From Kofleriaceae bacterium (lineage in GTDB: Bacteria > Myxococcota_A > Polyangia > Haliangiales > Haliangiaceae), in assembly GCA_024762925.1 (NCBI GenBank), contig JANTGM010000037.1, positions 1 to 50,047 on the forward strand: a stretch of 50,047 nucleotides of DNA, given 5' to 3'. The translations under genes and the position numbers were made by a program. Below, piece after piece: positions 9,020 through 50,047 of this stretch (positions are counted from its first letter, which is position 1; each line of letters opens with the position of its first letter). The notes beneath the pieces are model-generated. The model did not search any database. It had not been told where the DNA came from and saw only the letters and a list, made by a program, of their open reading frames with translations.

Positions 9020-10968
9020 CGCGATTCCACGTACGGTCTCGCCTGCACGATCCACACGGTCTCGCCTTCCAAGAGCCACTCCACGTCGAGGGCGTGGCGG
9101 CTGGAGAAGAGCGGCGCAAAACTCTGCACAGCGTTTGCCAAGCGCTTGGCGCGCTCTTCGGTGAGAATCACCCCGCGGTGCGGGTTTTCCACTTCTTGAA
9201 TGCCACCCTTGCTGTCAAAGACAAGCATATATGGATCGTCAGAGCGACTGATAATCTTGGTGCCATCGTTGGCTGTGTCGAAGATGATTTGCTCGGGGAT
9301 CTTTGTGCCTTCGACGACACGCATACCAAGGCCACTCTTTGCATTGATGGTGAAGCTGTTGTCGTCCTCCGGGTTGTACAAGTTGGTTGTGATGAGCACG
9401 CCAGCTGCAGTGGCGTTGACCCCGGTCTGAATTAAGACGCCTGCGTGGACCTGCTTGTGATCGATGCCAAACAGGTCTCGCTCCTCAAAGGCTCTGTAGT
9501 TCCATAGGGAGGCCCAGACTGTCTTGACCGCAGTCTCAAGATTTTTCTTACCGCGCACGTTGGGGACCGTGTCGTAGAGGCCAGCGCCGTTAAATCCAGG
9601 CAAGTCCTCCGCATTGGTGGAGGAGCGCACAAATACGCCACCGCCACCGAGTTTTAGGCGAACGCGTTTGTAGATGGCGTCGAGCACCTCGTCGTCCATA
9701 GGAGCGCTTAGGATCTGCTCTCGCAACGTGGCGAGAGCGTTTTTTCGGTAGCGCGCGTCAGATTTTATCTTGGGGTCGCTAAGAATACTTCTTACTATCT
9801 GGTCAAGTCCGTTCTTCTTCAGGTGACGTTGGTAGTAGAAGAACGGCAGCCCAAAGCCCTTTGGGATATTCACTTTGGAGAGCCCCGCTGAGGCAATCTC
9901 ACCGAGGTTTGCCGTCTTGCTGCCGTAGGTCCGAGCATGACCGGCCCGAAGCGCGGTGAGCATGGGCATGTTGGCAGTCTCCAAGTCTGCTGGCGGTACT
10001 GCCACAGTACGACGCTGTTTTCGCTGTCGCTCATAGCTAGCGATTTCAATGTTCGTGGCGAGCCTTAACACATGCTCGCGATCGCCCACTTCGTAGTACA
10101 CCACCTTGCCATTGAGTTCGTTGTAGTCAACGTTGGCGTTGCGATAGCCGGCATTGGGGATGCCCCAGGCCGTTGCCCGGAGGTTGACATGGGAGAGCGG
10201 CGTTGAGAAGACTGTCGACATGATGCCCGAAACGGGCGAAATATCCGGATACGACTCCTGCAATAGCACAATGTCGTCACGTTCAAAGACTAGCGACTCG
10301 TAGGGAGTATTCCTGGGAACAACTCGCAGCGTACCCACTGAGCTGCCCTTGTTGAATGCCTGGTATGGTGCACTCTTGTAGAGCGCATCGTTCGTGATGG
10401 TCTTGATGTTCTTGCGTGCAACAGCCTTCGCAACGCGCTCTTGGGAAGGGGAGTCGGGCCGAAAGAGAAGCTCCTTTTTGTAGAAGGTCTTTTTGAGCTT
10501 CTTGTAGACGCGCTCCACCCCTTTTGCGTCGATCTTATCGCCTTCCCAGAACGCAAAGCTCATCTTGTCGACCTTGAGGTGTTCGGTGATGTAGCCCAGG
10601 ATGAAGCGTGGTTTCACACGCTTGTAGTTCTTGTTGTATTCACGGATGTTGTCGGCGGTCCACGCCTGCTTCAAGAGCACGCCAAGTACGAAGTCAGCGT
10701 GGATTTTGAAGACGTTCACATCGATGAAGTAGATCTCGTCGGTCTTGATGTCGATGATGAACTTGCCGAAACGGTCGCTTCCCAAGACCCGTGAGTAGTT
10801 CTCAAACGTCGCTCGGTCGGGAATCGAGCGTACGTATATCCGTTGCGATTGAGCGCTTGCGTCTCTGGGCAACGCCAAGAAAGCCAGGCTCGCGAGTAAA
10901 GCGGCCAGGACGAGGGCCGTTCGGCGGGACCGAGAACGGGACGATCGAGTAGGCAACACAGTGCGCAT
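9016..10968 (-). CDS. Exported PEP/pyruvate-binding (PPDK_N) dikinase-like protein
   Basis: The protein is 650 aa from the ATG at 10968. A Sec-type signal peptide (twin-basic RSRRTALVLAALLASLAF up to DASAQS) suggests export. A central segment near residues 240-300 resembles a phosphohistidine domain, with H260 in TPLSHVNLRATAWGIP. Residues of about 340-650 form a PPDK N-terminal ATP-grasp domain: TYGSKTANLGEIASAG, GVFVRSSTNAEDLPGF, GAGLYDTVPNV and a C-terminal DVEWLLEGETVWIVQARPY. In PEP synthase and PPDK the His domain follows the ATP domain, whereas here it precedes it, as in alpha-glucan water dikinases. An ATP-using enzyme outside the cytoplasm would be unusual. It may be a binding protein or may be retained inside. 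A longer TTG start at 11007 would overlap the divergent gene. Confidence 0.8.
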   Translation of the reverse strand: MRTVLPTRSSRSRSRRTALVLAALLASLAFLALPRDASAQSQRIYVRSIPDRATFENYSRVLGSDRFGKFIIDIKTDEIYFIDVNVFKIHADFVLGVLLKQAWTADNIREYNKNYKRVKPRFILGYITEHLKVDKMSFAFWEGDKIDAKGVERVYKKLKKTFYKKELLFRPDSPSQERVAKAVARKNIKTITNDALYKSAPYQAFNKGSSVGTLRVVPRNTPYESLVFERDDIVLLQESYPDISPVSGIMSTVFSTPLSHVNLRATAWGIPNAGYRNANVDYNELNGKVVYYEVGDREHVLRLATNIEIASYERQRKQRRTVAVPPADLETANMPMLTALRAGHARTYGSKTANLGEIASAGLSKVNIPKGFGLPFFYYQRHLKKNGLDQIVRSILSDPKIKSDARYRKNALATLREQILSAPMDDEVLDAIYKRVRLKLGGGGVFVRSSTNAEDLPGFNGAGLYDTVPNVRGKKNLETAVKTVWASLWNYRAFEERDLFGIDHKQVHAGVLIQTGVNATAAGVLITTNLYNPEDDNSFTINAKSGLGMRVVEGTKIPEQIIFDTANDGTKIISRSDDPYMLVFDSKGGIQEVENPHRGVILTEERAKRLANAVQSFAPLFSSRHALDVEWLLEGETVWIVQARPYVESR

Positions 10969-16183: not shown

Positions 16184-16411
16184 ATGACGAGCGCCAAATC
16201 GAGCGATGGCCAAGGGAGCGATAGCTCGCGAATCCACGAACTGGAAGTACGCCTGGCCTACCAAGATCACTTGCTTGCAGAACTCGATGGAGTTGTGCGC
16301 GGCTTTGCCCTGCGTGTAGAACGCCTAGAGCGCGAATTGAGCGAGCTTAAGGAGAGCACTGGTGCTTCTCTTGAAGTTGGTGCCGGCAACGAAAAACCTC
16401 CACACTACTAG
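16184..16411 (+). CDS. slyX: SlyX-family coiled-coil protein
   Basis: This is a 75-aa protein, the normal SlyX size. After a short polar N-terminus it has RIHELEVRLAYQDHLLAELD and then a second heptad-rich helix with RVERLERELSELKE, the typical SlyX coiled coil. The molecular function of SlyX is not established. The start is ATG 16184, preceded by GGGCGG; the open frame extends upstream but only through the propeller gene. The TAG stop at 16409-16411 is part of the CTAG that begins the downstream repeat element. Confidence 0.85.
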   Translation: MTSAKSSDGQGSDSSRIHELEVRLAYQDHLLAELDGVVRGFALRVERLERELSELKESTGASLEVGAGNEKPPHY

Positions 16412-16645
16412 TGTCTAGTTCATTGACATTGGTTATCAGAAACGAAGAGAGTTGGTTTGCTGGCAAGGCGGGAAGAGGGCACTTGCTGGGCAAGTGACCG
16501 ATGAACAACGATGAGCAAAGCGGCCAGCGAGCGAAGCATCGAGTTTGCTTGCTCAAGGGCAATGCATCAGCCACCAGTACGCGATTGATGAATACAGAAC
16601 GCTATCACACGTCTTCTCGCCCCCTTGTCCTCAGTGGCCAAGGCA
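16408..16645. repeat. Composite of CTAG-bounded inverted-repeat elements upstream of hflX
   Basis: The left end starts CTAGTGTCTAGTTC on the slyX stop codon. From 16450 the sequence parallels the copy at 30498-30679: GGCAAGGCGGGAAGAGGG, a perfect hairpin CACTTGC-TGG-GCAAGTG at 16480-16496, and the following box GTGACCGATGAACAACG. From about 16577 it instead matches the opposite orientation of the copy at 49898 (GCGATTGATGAATACAGAACGC against GCGATTCATGAAGATAGAACGC, then CTTCTCGCCC). This looks like two partial elements facing each other. The stretch between slyX and hflX holds no other gene that I can support. Confidence 0.65.
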
Positions 16646-26855: not shown

Positions 26856-28958
26856 ATGAAAACCAACAAGGACAAGACTATGGACAAGAGGAAGGCTGCG
26901 AAACCTGCTGCGAAGAGGAAGGCTGCGAAACCTGCTGCGAAGAGGAAGGCTGCGAAACCTGCGGTGAAGAAGAAGGCTGCGAAACCTGTGGTGAAGAAGA
27001 AGGCTGCGAAACCTGCCGTGAAGAAGCCACGTACACGAGGCCCGAGCAAGAAAGAGGTCGCGCTCGCAGCGGAACTCACGCGTTTCAAGTCGGCGTTAAA
27101 CCTGGCGACAACCGCCATGATGTCCATCAACAAGGACTTCGAAGTTGATTACGCCAATGACGAGACCTATCGGCTACTGGAGTATCACGCGGACACACTG
27201 CGCACGCTGTATCCATCGTTTCGTACCGAAAGGCTCCTTGGTACATGCATTGACATCTTTCACCGTGTTCCATCCCATCAGAGAAACCTTCTCGCCGATC
27301 CACAGAATCTGCCATTCAAGTCGGTGATAACGGTTGGCCCGCTGAAGTTCGAAATCAACGTGGCGGGCATCTCCAGTGAGGACGGTGAGATTGACGGGTG
27401 GTTTCTTTGTTGGGATGACGTCACCGAGAAACACGCGCAGGAAACGGAGTCACTGAGACTGCAGTCAGCCATCGATAACGCTCGCACCGCGATCATGATG
27501 ATCGATATGGACCTGACAATCACGTATGTGAATCAGTCCACGAAGAAACTGCTCGCTGCTCGGCGCGACGAACTGCGGCGTCTGTACCCAACGTTTGAGG
27601 TTGAGAACATTGTTGGCACGTGCATTGACGTGTTTCATCGAAACCCGGCGCACCAACGCCGTTTGCTCTCCGACCCGTCCAATCTGCCGTGGCAATCCGA
27701 CATCAACGTTGGGCCGCTGACCTTCGACATTAACGTTCGGGGCGTCTACGATGTTGATGGCAAACAGGTTGGCTGCTCCCTTGAATGGGACGATGTAACG
27801 GACCAGCGCAATGGTCAGGAACAGGTTGAGAGAATCATTGCCTCGGCAGTTGGTGGCCAGCTTGATGGGCGGATTGAGACATCTGCCTACTCTGGTTTTA
27901 TGCGCGACTTCTGCGAAGGGGTTAACAGTCTTGTCGATGCCATTGTGGCGCCAATGGACGGAATTTCCAACGTCGCCGATGCTCTTGCCAAAGGCGATCT
28001 AACCAAGACGATGGAGGGCGAGTATCAAGGCCAGTTCGCATCGGTGAAGGACTCTCTCAATGCCAGCATCGCCGTGCTGAGCTCGATGGTGGCCAAGATC
28101 AACTACACCGCAAGCGAGTTGTCGGCAGAGGCGAGCACAATTTCCCAGGGCAATACCGAGCTGAATGATCGCACGCAGGAACAGGCCGCCTCGCTTGAGG
28201 AAACCGCTGCGGCCGTCGAGCAAATGACGTCGACAACAAGGCAGAACGCGACCAACGCCAACAATGCAAGCACGTTGAGCCGTGAGGCGTCGCTTTTGGC
28301 GAATCGTGGTGGGGATGTCGTAGGGAAGGCTGTTACTGCCATGGAGAGCATCAATTCGGCATCTAAGAAAATTGCGGATATTATCGGGGTTATCGACGAG
28401 ATTGCGTTTCAGACGAACATTCTCGCGCTGAACGCCGCAGTGGAGGCGGCCCGCGCTGGAGAGCAAGGTCGCGGATTCGCTGTTGTCGCCTCCGAAGTGC
28501 GCAACCTCGCGCAACGCAGCGCTGGCGCAGCCAAGGAGATCAAGGGGCTAATTCAAGACAGTGTTGAGAGAGTCGCAGAAGGTTCAAGCTTGGTGAATGA
28601 ATCGGGGCAGACTCTTTCCGAGATTGTGCGTTCTGTTGACCAGGTGAGTCGAATCATTGAAGACATTGCCACAGCCTCGGAGGAACAGAGTGCTGGTGTC
28701 GAGTCCATCAATCAGGCCGTGATGAAGCTTGACGAGATGACACAGAAGAATGCGGCTCTTGTCGAAGAGGCGGCGGCCACAAGTGGTGCTATGGACGTCA
28801 AGGCGCATGGCCTCCTTGATCTCATGAATCACTTCACCATTGACAAGGGGCAAGCAGCTCCCGTGCCTTCGATGCCAGCTGCATCGAGAACAACGACCTC
28901 GGCATCGGTTCGGGCAGCGCCCATGTCCAGTCCTGGCGATGGCTGGTCCGAGTTCTAG
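26856..28958 (+). CDS. Soluble chemoreceptor with histone-like basic tail and two PAS domains
   Basis: The protein is 700 aa with no membrane segment. Residues of about 9-60 are very basic and are made of five 9-residue repeats of [18 protein letters not shown] type, resembling histone H1 or HU-like C-tails. Two PAS domains follow, both with the receptor-type motif [15 protein letters not shown] or [15 protein letters not shown] and ending WDDVT. Next come a HAMP-like region ([21 protein letters not shown]) and the signalling coiled coil with the hairpin [20 protein letters not shown] and [20 protein letters not shown]. The C-terminus is GWSEF, an aromatic-x-x-Phe tether pentapeptide. It should be a cytoplasmic receptor; the tail suggests DNA or nucleoid attachment, as reported for FrzCD of Myxococcus. 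Start is ATG 26856; ATG 26880 is also possible. Confidence 0.93.
26886..27020 (+). repeat. Five tandem 27-bp repeats encoding Lys/Ala/Pro units
   Basis: Five in-frame copies of a 27-bp unit occupy 26886-26912, 26913-26939, 26940-26966, 26967-26993 and 26994-27020. The first two are identical; later ones differ by a few bases, giving KR/KK and AA/AV/VV changes only. The repeat encodes the histone-H1-like tail of the soluble receptor and could expand or contract by slippage. Confidence 0.92.
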
Positions 28959-29875: not shown

Positions 29876-30501
29876 GGGTTGTCGATCGAAGCGCGGGGCA
29901 GGCCTATTCGGTGTTCTGGGACCCACGTTCGGAACGCCAGATCCTCCGCGTATCTCCGGGGGGCTACTGTGTAACGCAAGGGTCGCATCTGATTAGCACC
30001 GTGCTAGGGTCGTGCGTCGCAACATGCATCCGTGACCCAAAGGCTCAAGTAGCCGGCATGAATCATTTCATGCTTCCGGAAGCGCCTGACGATGGCCACG
30101 AGGAATGGCGTGGCCTCACGGGAATGGAAGCACGCTACGGGAACTTCGCGATGGAGTGCCTTATCAATGAGCTGATGGCCCGTGGCGCGGCAAAAGAAAG
30201 AATGCAGGTGAAAGTTTTCGGTGGTGGTGATGTTCTAGGGGCGGAACGGTCGGGGGCTTCGCTTGCGAGGTCTGTGGGGAATCGGAATATCGCGTTTGTA
30301 AGAGAATATCTTAAGAGCGAAGGGCTGGTTGTGATGTCTCAGGATCTTGGTGGGCGCGTTTCTCGGAGTGTGAGGTATTTGCCGATTACCGGCCAAGTGT
30401 GGGTGAAACACATGGAGCATCGAACGTCATCGGAAGAAGCCGCGTATCGGAAACGGCTTCACGACGAGCGTGTTGAGACAAACGATGTCGAGTTTTTCTA
30501 G
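29872..30501 (+). CDS. cheD: Chemoreceptor glutamine deamidase CheD
   Basis: CheD deamidates receptor glutamines to glutamates. The 209-aa protein has the catalytic Cys in TVLGSCVATCIRD, the His in AGMNHFMLP and the Thr/Lys-containing VKVFGGGDVL region, plus a C-terminal helix extension (SSEEAAYRKRLHDERVETND). It starts four bases inside cheR. The TAG stop is provided by the CTAG that begins the downstream inverted-repeat element. Confidence 0.95.
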   Translation: MRVVDRSAGQAYSVFWDPRSERQILRVSPGGYCVTQGSHLISTVLGSCVATCIRDPKAQVAGMNHFMLPEAPDDGHEEWRGLTGMEARYGNFAMECLINELMARGAAKERMQVKVFGGGDVLGAERSGASLARSVGNRNIAFVREYLKSEGLVVMSQDLGGRVSRSVRYLPITGQVWVKHMEHRTSSEEAAYRKRLHDERVETNDVEFF

Positions 30502-30679
30502 TGCGCGATCCAGAAAAATTGAGATGGGATCGCGAAGTACGCTTGTTCGCTGCTAAGGCGCGCGAAGGGAGCTTGCTGGGGCAAGTGACCGATCAAGCAA
30601 CCATGAGCGTTGACTCATCAACACGTCCAGCAAGGAGAAGACGAGTGAGCACGCTCAACCTCTTTGAATCGCGCACTAG
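30498..30679 (+). repeat. Inverted-repeat (MITE-like) element, copy between cheD and cheB
   Basis: This is a 182-bp element with CTAG at both ends and terminal inverted repeats: CTAGTGCGCGATCCA at the left and CTAGTGCGCGATTCA (read in reverse) at the right, differing at one position. Inside are the hairpin CTTGC-TGGG-GCAAG (30572-30585), the box GTGACCGATCAAGCAAC and a second hairpin GTTGA-CTCA-TCAAC (30609-30622). It contains no transposase. It starts on the TAG stop of cheD and shares its right CTAG with the next element. Confidence 0.85.
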
Positions 30680-30849
30680 TGTCGGGTCCAGAATGGTTGA
30701 TCGACGATCGCGAAGGGGGGGCGTTCACAGGCAAAGCGCGAACAACGAGCTTGCTGGGGCAAGGGAGGCGCTGAGCAACGCAGAGCCGAAGGCGTCCAGA
30801 GGACGAAGAACCGAGCGAGCGCGAGCAAGATTTTTGAATCCGACACGAG
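30676..30849 (+). repeat. Second inverted-repeat (MITE-like) element upstream of cheB
   Basis: This is a 174-bp element in tandem with, and in the same orientation as, the preceding copy. The left end is CTAGTGTCGGGTCCAGAA; the right end read in reverse is CTCGTGTCGGATTCAAAA, 14 of 18 matching. The ends differ from those of the neighbour (TCGG instead of GCGCG) but still match each other. Internal hairpins are CTTGC-TGGG-GCAAG (30750-30763) and CGTCC-AGA-GGACG (30793-30805). The right end stops a few bases before the cheB ribosome-binding site. The two elements fill the whole cheD-cheB gap. Confidence 0.8.
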
Positions 30850-30868
30850 TGCAGAAAGGTGAAGGATA

Positions 30869-31909
30869 GTGGGCGCGATTAAGGTCTTGATTGTCGATGA
30901 CTCAGCTTTGGTCTGTGAAATGCTGACGGGCATCTTTGCGAGCGATTCTGCCTTTGAAGTTGTGGGGGTTGCCCATGATCCATACGAGGCTCGCGACCTC
31001 ATCAAGCAACTCAACCCAGACGTGTTGACGCTGGATATTGAAATGCCCCGAATGGATGGTATTAGCTTCTTGCGCAACCTCATGCGCTTGCGGCCGATGC
31101 CTGTAGTCATGGTCTCGTCACTCACGCAGAGGGGCAGCAAGCAGACCCTAGACGCACTTGAGCTTGGTGCTTTCGACTTTGTCGCCAAGCCACATACGGG
31201 CGACTTGCGAGATTTGGAAACCGAGATTCGCCGCAAAGTTCGCGCCGCGGCTGGAATCGGAGTCACGAGCGTCCAGCGGCCCAAACCAGAACCAACAGAG
31301 CGTATTGGCAGGCAGGGCACAAGCATCATTGGCATCGGTGCTTCGACCGGAGGTACTTCGGCACTAAGACATGTTCTGGCTGAGATGCCCGCCGATAGCC
31401 CACCGATCGCTATCGTGCAGCACTTGCCAGCTGCCTTCAGCAAGGCCTTTGCCAAACGCCTTGATGGTGTGTCACCACTGGCCGTTACACTTGCGGAAGA
31501 CGGTATGCACGTTATGCCAGGGCACGCCTATGTGGCCCCGGGGGACGCGCATATGACAGTGGAGGGGCGCAGGAGGGTCGTCTTGCGCCTAGAGAAATCC
31601 GCGTGTGTCAACGGCCATATGCCGGCCGTAGACCCGCTCTTTGCTTCGATGGCTGCGAACCTCAGTGACCGATGCATTGGCGCTTTGATGACGGGGATGG
31701 GCGCCGATGGGGCCGCTGGGCTGTTGGCGATTCGCAGGGCCGGCGGCTATACCCTTGCGCAGGACGAGGCTACTTCGGTGGTGTGGGGTATGCCAGGTGA
31801 AGCGGTGAAACGAGGAGCCGCCTGCGAAGTGGTAGGACTGCCAACGCTGGCCCGTAGCCTAGTTCGCGTGGTTCGCAAGCAAGCCGACCGCAGAAACGCT
31901 GCTGGCTAA
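30869..31909 (+). CDS. cheB: Protein-glutamate methylesterase CheB
   Basis: CheB removes receptor methyl groups and deamidates glutamines when phosphorylated by CheA. The 346-aa protein has an N-terminal receiver domain (VDDSALVCEML, phospho-site D56 in LTLDIEMPRMDG, K107 in DFVAKPHT) and a C-terminal methylesterase with catalytic S159 in IGIGASTGGTSAL, H185 in IVQHLPAAF and D280 in MTGMGADGAAG. The start is GTG 30869, preceded by AAGGTGAAGGA. It is separated from the rest of the operon by two repeat elements, which may change its expression relative to cheR and cheD. Confidence 0.97.
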   Translation: MGAIKVLIVDDSALVCEMLTGIFASDSAFEVVGVAHDPYEARDLIKQLNPDVLTLDIEMPRMDGISFLRNLMRLRPMPVVMVSSLTQRGSKQTLDALELGAFDFVAKPHTGDLRDLETEIRRKVRAAAGIGVTSVQRPKPEPTERIGRQGTSIIGIGASTGGTSALRHVLAEMPADSPPIAIVQHLPAAFSKAFAKRLDGVSPLAVTLAEDGMHVMPGHAYVAPGDAHMTVEGRRRVVLRLEKSACVNGHMPAVDPLFASMAANLSDRCIGALMTGMGADGAAGLLAIRRAGGYTLAQDEATSVVWGMPGEAVKRGAACEVVGLPTLARSLVRVVRKQADRRNAAG

Positions 31910-49897: not shown

Positions 49898-50047
49898 CTA
49901 GTGCGCGATTCATGAAGATAGAACGCGCTCACTCGCCTTCTCGCCCGCTGGAGACTGGCTCTGCCAGTCTTCTTCGTTGTTCCTCGGTCGCTTGCCCCAG
50001 CAAACTCCCTCTTCCCGCCTCGCCAGCAAACGAGCTGACTTCGCGAT
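49898..50047 (-). repeat. Inverted-repeat (MITE-like) element upstream of the rho-like gene, cut by the window end
   Basis: This element is opposite in orientation to the cheD-cheB copies. It begins CTAGTGCGCGATTCATGAAG, matching the terminal repeat of the 30498-30679 element. It contains an 8-bp stem AGACTGGC-TCT-GCCAGTCT (49952-49970) and, read on the minus strand, TTTGCTGGGGCAAGCGACCG plus GGCGGGAAGAGGGAG, all shared with the copy upstream of hflX. The other end is beyond the window. It lies about 70 bp upstream of the rho-like start codon. Confidence 0.8.

Follow-up and report, generated by a model that had tools for sequence, protein, structure and literature searches.

In the window, by which we mean the whole stretch of 50,047 nucleotides analysed here, two short repeats lie head to tail between cheD and cheB (assigned by Pfam), and a first-pass annotation had noted that the hairpins inside such repeats change in sequence while their pairing is kept, from which it proposed selection for folding as RNA or single-stranded DNA. 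The question raised by this locus is whether such selection exists and, if so, on which copies and on which molecule it acts. The repeats are apparently a small, mobile DNA element: they measure approximately 150-190 bp, often have TA at both borders, and contain inverted arms, side hairpins and a conserved core. The elements of the window and their parts are as follows.

16408..16577, + strand: element D, delta subfamily, with a CTAGTGTCTAGTTCA end
16576..16625, - strand: beta right-end fragment adjoining element D (found by BLAST)
30498..30679, + strand: element A, alpha subfamily, full length, with CTAG ends
30555..30566, + strand: left half of the core motif in element A, AAGGCGCGCGAA
30571..30586, + strand: H1 (first side hairpin) of element A, GCTTGC-TGGG-GCAAGT
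30595..30608, + strand: right half of the core motif in element A, AAGCAACCATGAGC (consensus GAGCAACG)
30609..30622, + strand: H2 (second side hairpin) of element A, GTTGA-CTCA-TCAAC
30676..30849, + strand: element B, gamma subfamily, full length
30749..30763, + strand: H1 of element B, GCTTGC-TGGG-GCAAG
30785..30793, + strand: site equivalent to H2 in element B, GCC-GAA-GGC
30793..30805, + strand: CGTCC-AGA-GGACG in element B, aligned to the right arm of other elements and not to H2
49898..50047, - strand: element C, beta subfamily, truncated by the contig end, model positions 32-173
49952..49970, - strand: H2 of element C, with an 8-bp stem

The repeats of the window and their subfamilies

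The hairpins named in the annotation are all present as letters, namely GTTGA-CTCA-TCAAC at 30609-30622, CGTCC-AGA-GGACG at 30793-30805 and, as read on the + strand, the 8-bp hairpin AGACTGGC-TCT-GCCAGTCT at 49952-49970; the outer ends also differ as it had stated (CTAGTGCGCGAT at 30498 and CTAGTGTCGG at 30676). The hairpin at 49952 is a genuine counterpart of H2. The treatment of CGTCC-AGA-GGACG as the counterpart of GTTGACTCATCAAC compared non-matching parts: it aligns with CGTCCAGC.., immediately 3' of H2, and when the gamma consensus is folded its CCAG is base-paired to the left arm. Elements A and B have CTAG at 30676-30679 in common. The fold of element A has a z value of -3.76 on the strand carrying the core motifs (hereafter the motif strand) versus -4.84 on the opposite strand, and that of element B has a z value of -2.05, with 9 of 200 shuffles being equally good; both elements are partly decayed, and the consensus fold is lost in both. 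An open reading frame of 122 codons (30501-30869) spans the two elements, its start overlapping the cheD stop (TAGTG) and its stop overlapping the cheB start; a Pfam search of this frame gave no matches. Elsewhere in the window, a 27-bp tandem repeat (26859-27051) is predicted to encode the lysine/alanine-rich N-terminus of a putative chemotaxis receptor.

The genome that carries the window (6.79 Mb in 246 contigs, a 98.3% complete draft) contains many such repeats: the beta-type end pattern has 349 matches genome-wide at up to two mismatches, against 0 for the control, and BLAST with five seeds detected 34 repeat regions in 850 kb. They fall into at least seven subfamilies (alpha, beta, gamma, delta, epsilon, zeta and theta), whose consensuses are 174-183 bp long, TA-bordered and MITE-like; all seven start with CTAG and have imperfect inverted arms approximately 55 nt long and one or two side hairpins. 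Short length, high copy number and terminal inverted repeats, the marks of a MITE, are thus found together. H2 reads GCGTTG/CAACGC in alpha, AGACTGGC/GCCAGTCT in beta and GCGCTGGC/GCCAGCGC in theta, and is short in the others; H1 reads CTTGC/GCAAG, with CTTAC/GTAAG in theta and CGTATC/GATACG in zeta. When 57 full-length copies were labelled by pattern, 8 mixed the labels of two subfamilies and 7 more had an unassigned part. Chimeric elements with left and right ends from different subfamilies occur at L124:9550-9734, L155:24-196 and L171:1017-1187 (by eye gamma/beta, beta/epsilon and beta/delta, respectively). Additionally, a second short palindrome, GCTAGTTTTTGTCCC..GGGACAAAAACTAGC or similar, adjoins several elements (L124 approximately 9450-9550, L170:1-127 and L037 after 153).

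Covariation between lineages and decay within subfamilies

In a sequence-based alignment of the seven consensuses, RNAalifold predicted 57 pairs, 27 of which show pair-keeping double changes, with an energy of -73.4 on the motif strand versus -51.4 on the opposite one. Paired cells amounted to 93.7% (79.3% after shuffling), and covariation was 0.481, as compared with 0.200 in shuffled and 0.072-0.125 in slid controls.

A wider sample was obtained by structure. The core pattern TTGCTGGGGCAAGYGACCGA has 163 matches in the own genome at up to one mismatch and none in 55 related genomes, two of them congeneric, whereas R1, a covariance model of the seven consensuses, found relatives in 14 of these 55 (15 of 56 genomes with the own included, at E 0.01), mostly full length and often in multiple copies. 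With R2, a second model built from 37 elements, matches were found at E 1e-5 in 110 of the 317 genomes examined from the class (the own genome among them), covering 67 of 151 genera (8 candidates scored per genome), and in 88 of 377 genomes sampled over the phylum, 29 of which belong to the own class and 59 to other classes (7 scored per genome). The specificity of R2 can be gauged from 850 kb of the own genome, where it gives 27 matches at E 0.1: 25 overlap repeats that BLAST had detected, and a 26th is a zeta element (L069:5662-5835) that nhmmer finds too. L053:16713-16877 was matched by R2 only (E 6e-7), and not by BLAST or nhmmer with the known subfamilies; it is perhaps a further diverged element. 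A sequence-pattern search of GTDB contigs gave at least one Mycolicibacter match among the matches listed, which we took as chance. The ends of the relatives span CTAGTGCC to TAACCCCAG, TAAGGGCCC and CTAGAGC, and the terminal arms are lineage-specific but match within an element.

When up to one mismatch is allowed in each, the core motifs AGGCGCGA and GAGCAACG occur together in 73 of 87 relatives, as compared with a mean of 1.1 after shuffling and 0 on the reverse strand, and they do so in all 21 later elements; both are exact in 40 of the 87. Because the models contain these motifs, the set of relatives was itself chosen for them. A limit of two mismatches was too loose (86 of 87 versus 35 in shuffled sequences), and one mismatch was used instead.

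Among 90 model-aligned matches, 88.6% of the cells pair and covariation is 0.697 (shuffled 0.184, slid 0.048-0.095), and for 37 model-aligned elements the value is 0.731 (0.190 and 0.052-0.122, respectively); both alignments were made by the model and are biased towards its structure. A less model-biased check is provided by a sequence-only alignment of 19 elements (mean identity 57%) from 19 genomes that were absent from model building, though found with R2. Here, 40 of 47 pairs are compensated, and the energy is -79.7, whereas 30 column-shuffled trials average -0.7 and the opposite strand gives -59.3. One core pair is C-G in 9 of the 19 elements and G-C in 8, and column conservation is 0.78 in the core versus 0.61 in the arms. 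H1, which lies far from the ends, covaries as well, as helix 8 in the 90- and 37-element sets and as pairs 77-94 to 82-89 in the 19-element set. Covariation beyond both shuffled and slid controls, the mark by which we recognised a structured RNA or single-stranded DNA, was therefore found, and between lineages there is good support for selection on the folding of one strand.

Inside the subfamilies, the picture is different. In a copy-enriched sample whose hits were assigned by the best of three models (alpha 25, beta 113, gamma 58), the substitution rates against the consensus in paired and unpaired columns were 0.083 and 0.083 for alpha, 0.063 and 0.076 for beta, and 0.128 and 0.134 for gamma. 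Where a double change in these hits keeps a pair, the cell mostly comes from a sequence that belongs to another subfamily (delta, epsilon, zeta or theta). H2 is complete in 72 beta copies, of which 48 keep every pair and 24 carry a broken one; an H2 pair is changed in 32 beta copies, and only 2 of the 32 are compensated, one of these being theta-like. This pattern resembles neutral decay after insertion. Since paired and unpaired columns change at nearly the same rate and H2 is so rarely compensated, the fold has been kept in source lineages and lost in inserted copies; the data support selection for the fold on the former, not on every copy.

The paired changes reported by the annotation thus hold between subfamilies and fail between sister copies, and the selection for folding that it drew from them stands between lineages, where covariation, conserved core motifs and a better-folding strand agree, but not inside subfamilies, where decay proceeds with almost no compensation. 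Stems decaying without compensation, which it had named as evidence against its proposal, do occur inside each subfamily, whereas between subfamilies 27 of the 57 pairs are compensated. The letters of the element vary almost everywhere, yet its folded shape and a short core persist, an indication that it works as a folded single strand.

Borders, IS630 and known repeat families

Of 109 rows of relatives, 71 carry TA at both borders, versus 1 of 106-107 in each of six shifted controls, and the other 38 lack it at one or both; such TA borders are of the IS630 type. CTAG is found at both ends of 32 of 61 own full-length copies, a set picked by a CTAG-containing end pattern, and ten neighbouring pairs in the own genome have a 4-nt border in common, which is CTAG in 3 and a variant in 7. 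According to extracts from PMC2170065, IS630-type elements insert into TA and duplicate it, and the title of a reference given there concerns a CTAG preference. No empty site was seen among the matches listed (joined flanks) or by a paired-flank search, so we only infer target duplication here.

The own genome holds DDE_3 (IS630) remnants, and only remnants; no intact IS630 gene or parent element was found in it. One remnant, on contig C40, carries 66 nt of a beta left end. Directly behind its transposase stop lies an end in which 19 of 26 positions agree with the epsilon right end, a score equalled by none of 100000 shuffles; the left junction of this remnant may have arisen through later recombination. 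Among the relatives, two IS630 copies are inserted in CTAG. When inverted ends were sought beside TA at 15 IS630 loci, TA being required, 6 candidate pairs emerged, two of which (L099 and L105) have CTAG on both sides; these ends were set against those of the MITEs by pattern scan only. No DDE_3 gene lies within the element, which is too short for one, and to judge from these sequences the element acts like a passenger of IS630 and not a member. In the own genome, a 98.3% complete draft, PF13546 (IS701) and Y1_Tnp had no match at E 0.001, and PF01609 had one match, below its cut-off.

Several families of small repeats resemble these elements. The Correia/NEMIS and ERIC/IRU families are sequence-defined and have a narrower range, whereas relatives of the present elements were found by structure, the 20-letter core pattern finding none. 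RUP differs in being 107 bp long and reported from Streptococcus pneumoniae, and we know of no wide covarying fold or conserved core in it. REP/REPIN elements (RAYT, Y1) are likewise palindromic and dispersed, but their ends and borders differ from the TA-bordered ends seen here, and Y1_Tnp has no match in the own genome at the threshold given above. In the parts of PMC2229807 that treat them, RUP (an IS630-Spn1-associated MITE of S. pneumoniae) is likewise a small intergenic repeat with TA ends and IS630-like terminal repeats, and Correia/NEMIS and ERIC/IRU are likewise approximately 100-200 bp long with TA ends and transcripts predicted as long stem-loops. IS630/Tc1-mariner elements such as ISY100 insert at TA and duplicate it (PMC2170065, in extract) and are alike in their borders; they differ in being autonomous and transposase-coding. 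Small TA-ended repeats with hairpin transcripts are thus already well known (PMC2229807 and PMC10969869, both in extract), so the kind of element is known. In the openly accessible literature, to which our search was confined (subscription papers lying outside its scope), we found no description of a phylum-wide family held together by fold and core. Rfam (4227 models) gave no matches for the window at gathering scores, for 551 bp at E 10, or for 14 loci of relatives at E 1.

The nature of the folded strand

We consider the chances about even that the elements form an old, phylum-wide superfamily of IS630-moved MITEs with a selected single-strand fold, most likely of RNA. IS630/Tc1-type transposases would move these non-autonomous, MITE-like transposons in trans and insert them at TA (in this genome frequently CTAG), and the sequences of the ends would consequently turn over with the transposase. 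In active source copies, selection would act on a folded single-stranded form of the motif strand. This would most likely be an RNA transcript, its arms serving as a clamp that holds the core and H1 out to a partner; after insertion, copies would drift and lose the fold.

That one particular strand matters is indicated by its folding. The motif strand is the better-folding one in all 7 consensuses, in 85 of 87 relatives, in 56 of the 57 full-length copies of the own genome and in all 22 later rows; both exceptions among the relatives belong to group G037, in which two of five elements fold better on the opposite strand. Element A of the window, with its lower z value on the opposite strand, speaks against the proposed reading. 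In strand-neutral alignments of the two arms, mismatches on the motif strand are G.T rather than A.C by 34 to 10 in the consensuses, by 312 to 122 over 94 sequences and by 50 to 18 in 20 later elements. Over the 94 sequences the excess is seen in 14 of 15 groups (G037 has 6 to 7), but it counts related, non-independent sequences and stems in part from a tandem U.G that almost every subfamily retains. The models that yielded all the relatives, moreover, have the motifs built in and tolerate G.U.

The relevant fold may instead be that of single-stranded DNA at the replication fork, as in REP/IS200-type elements, a reading that we take seriously while thinking it rather less probable. Own copies avoid genes (6 of 178 lie inside a predicted gene, with a simple gene caller and 90% coding) and divergent gaps (5 of 99), and they show no coding-strand preference (36 sense versus 28 antisense; 64 to 68). 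The motif strand, however, lies on the locally C-rich strand in 83 of 132 own copies (p 0.004), a bias that holds over six window sizes of 3-20 kb (p 0.0003-0.0076) and with one copy per 3 kb (p 0.0017-0.033). To lie against the local GC skew without a coding-strand bias points towards replication rather than transcription, and G.T pairs are tolerated in single-stranded DNA too. Such a bias can also be produced by a host that selects against hairpins on one of the strands at the fork; the tandem U.G pairs look RNA-like, and the Y1 (HUH) transposase expected of such elements has no match at E 0.001 in the own genome. Because the skew may reflect either replication or host selection, we keep RNA as the first choice, with single-stranded DNA close behind.

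We think it unlikely that the elements are plain MITEs in which the palindrome is a by-product of two terminal repeats fitting one transposase, with no selection on a single strand. The arms, lineage-specific yet matched within each element, are what such a process would leave, as is the uncompensated decay of inserted copies, and paired changes can arise in the absence of selection when quasi-palindromes are corrected at replication. The covariation of H1 far from the ends, a core pair that is now C-G and now G-C, the conserved core motifs and the single better-folding strand of nearly all relatives argue against it.

Lampson and Rice in 1997 and Lampson in 2002 reportedly proposed that repeats of Nannocystis exedens are retro-copies of retron msDNA; those repeats, to judge from the titles, are similarly dispersed and myxobacterial. 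A like origin here strikes us as very improbable: msDNA has a similar length and hairpin form and the own genome encodes a type XIII retron reverse transcriptase, but the TA borders, inverted ends and IS630 remnants suggest a DNA transposase, and the 5 kb around the retron contain no R2 match even at E 10 (one retron, one genome, R2 only), so that an element-like unit beside the reverse transcriptase is lacking and a retron origin is disfavoured. The reverse transcriptase gene lies at L041:4179-5543 (G000:C1:44179-45543; PADLOC RT_XIII, 5e-146); immediately upstream of it is a likely msr-msd, delimited by eye by GGAGAAGGGACTG/CAGTCCCTTCTCC.

Returning to IS630-moved MITEs with a selected fold, we put forward with some hesitation, as possible and still doubtful, the broader idea that this is a phylum-wide class of DNA-transposon passengers, a TA-inserting MITE superfamily recognised by its conserved structured core and not by its ends, whose propagation would depend on a folded one-strand RNA (or single-stranded DNA), the ends being exchangeable and the fold inherited. 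The hairpins of MITEs are usually read as a passive outcome of their inverted ends, and here internal parts covary too. The element can be traced by structure where a sequence pattern fails, and its core is kept across many genomes of the phylum; a functional RNA or single-stranded DNA stage of small bacterial transposons thereby becomes a testable question, and the covariance model can be used to seek such elements elsewhere.
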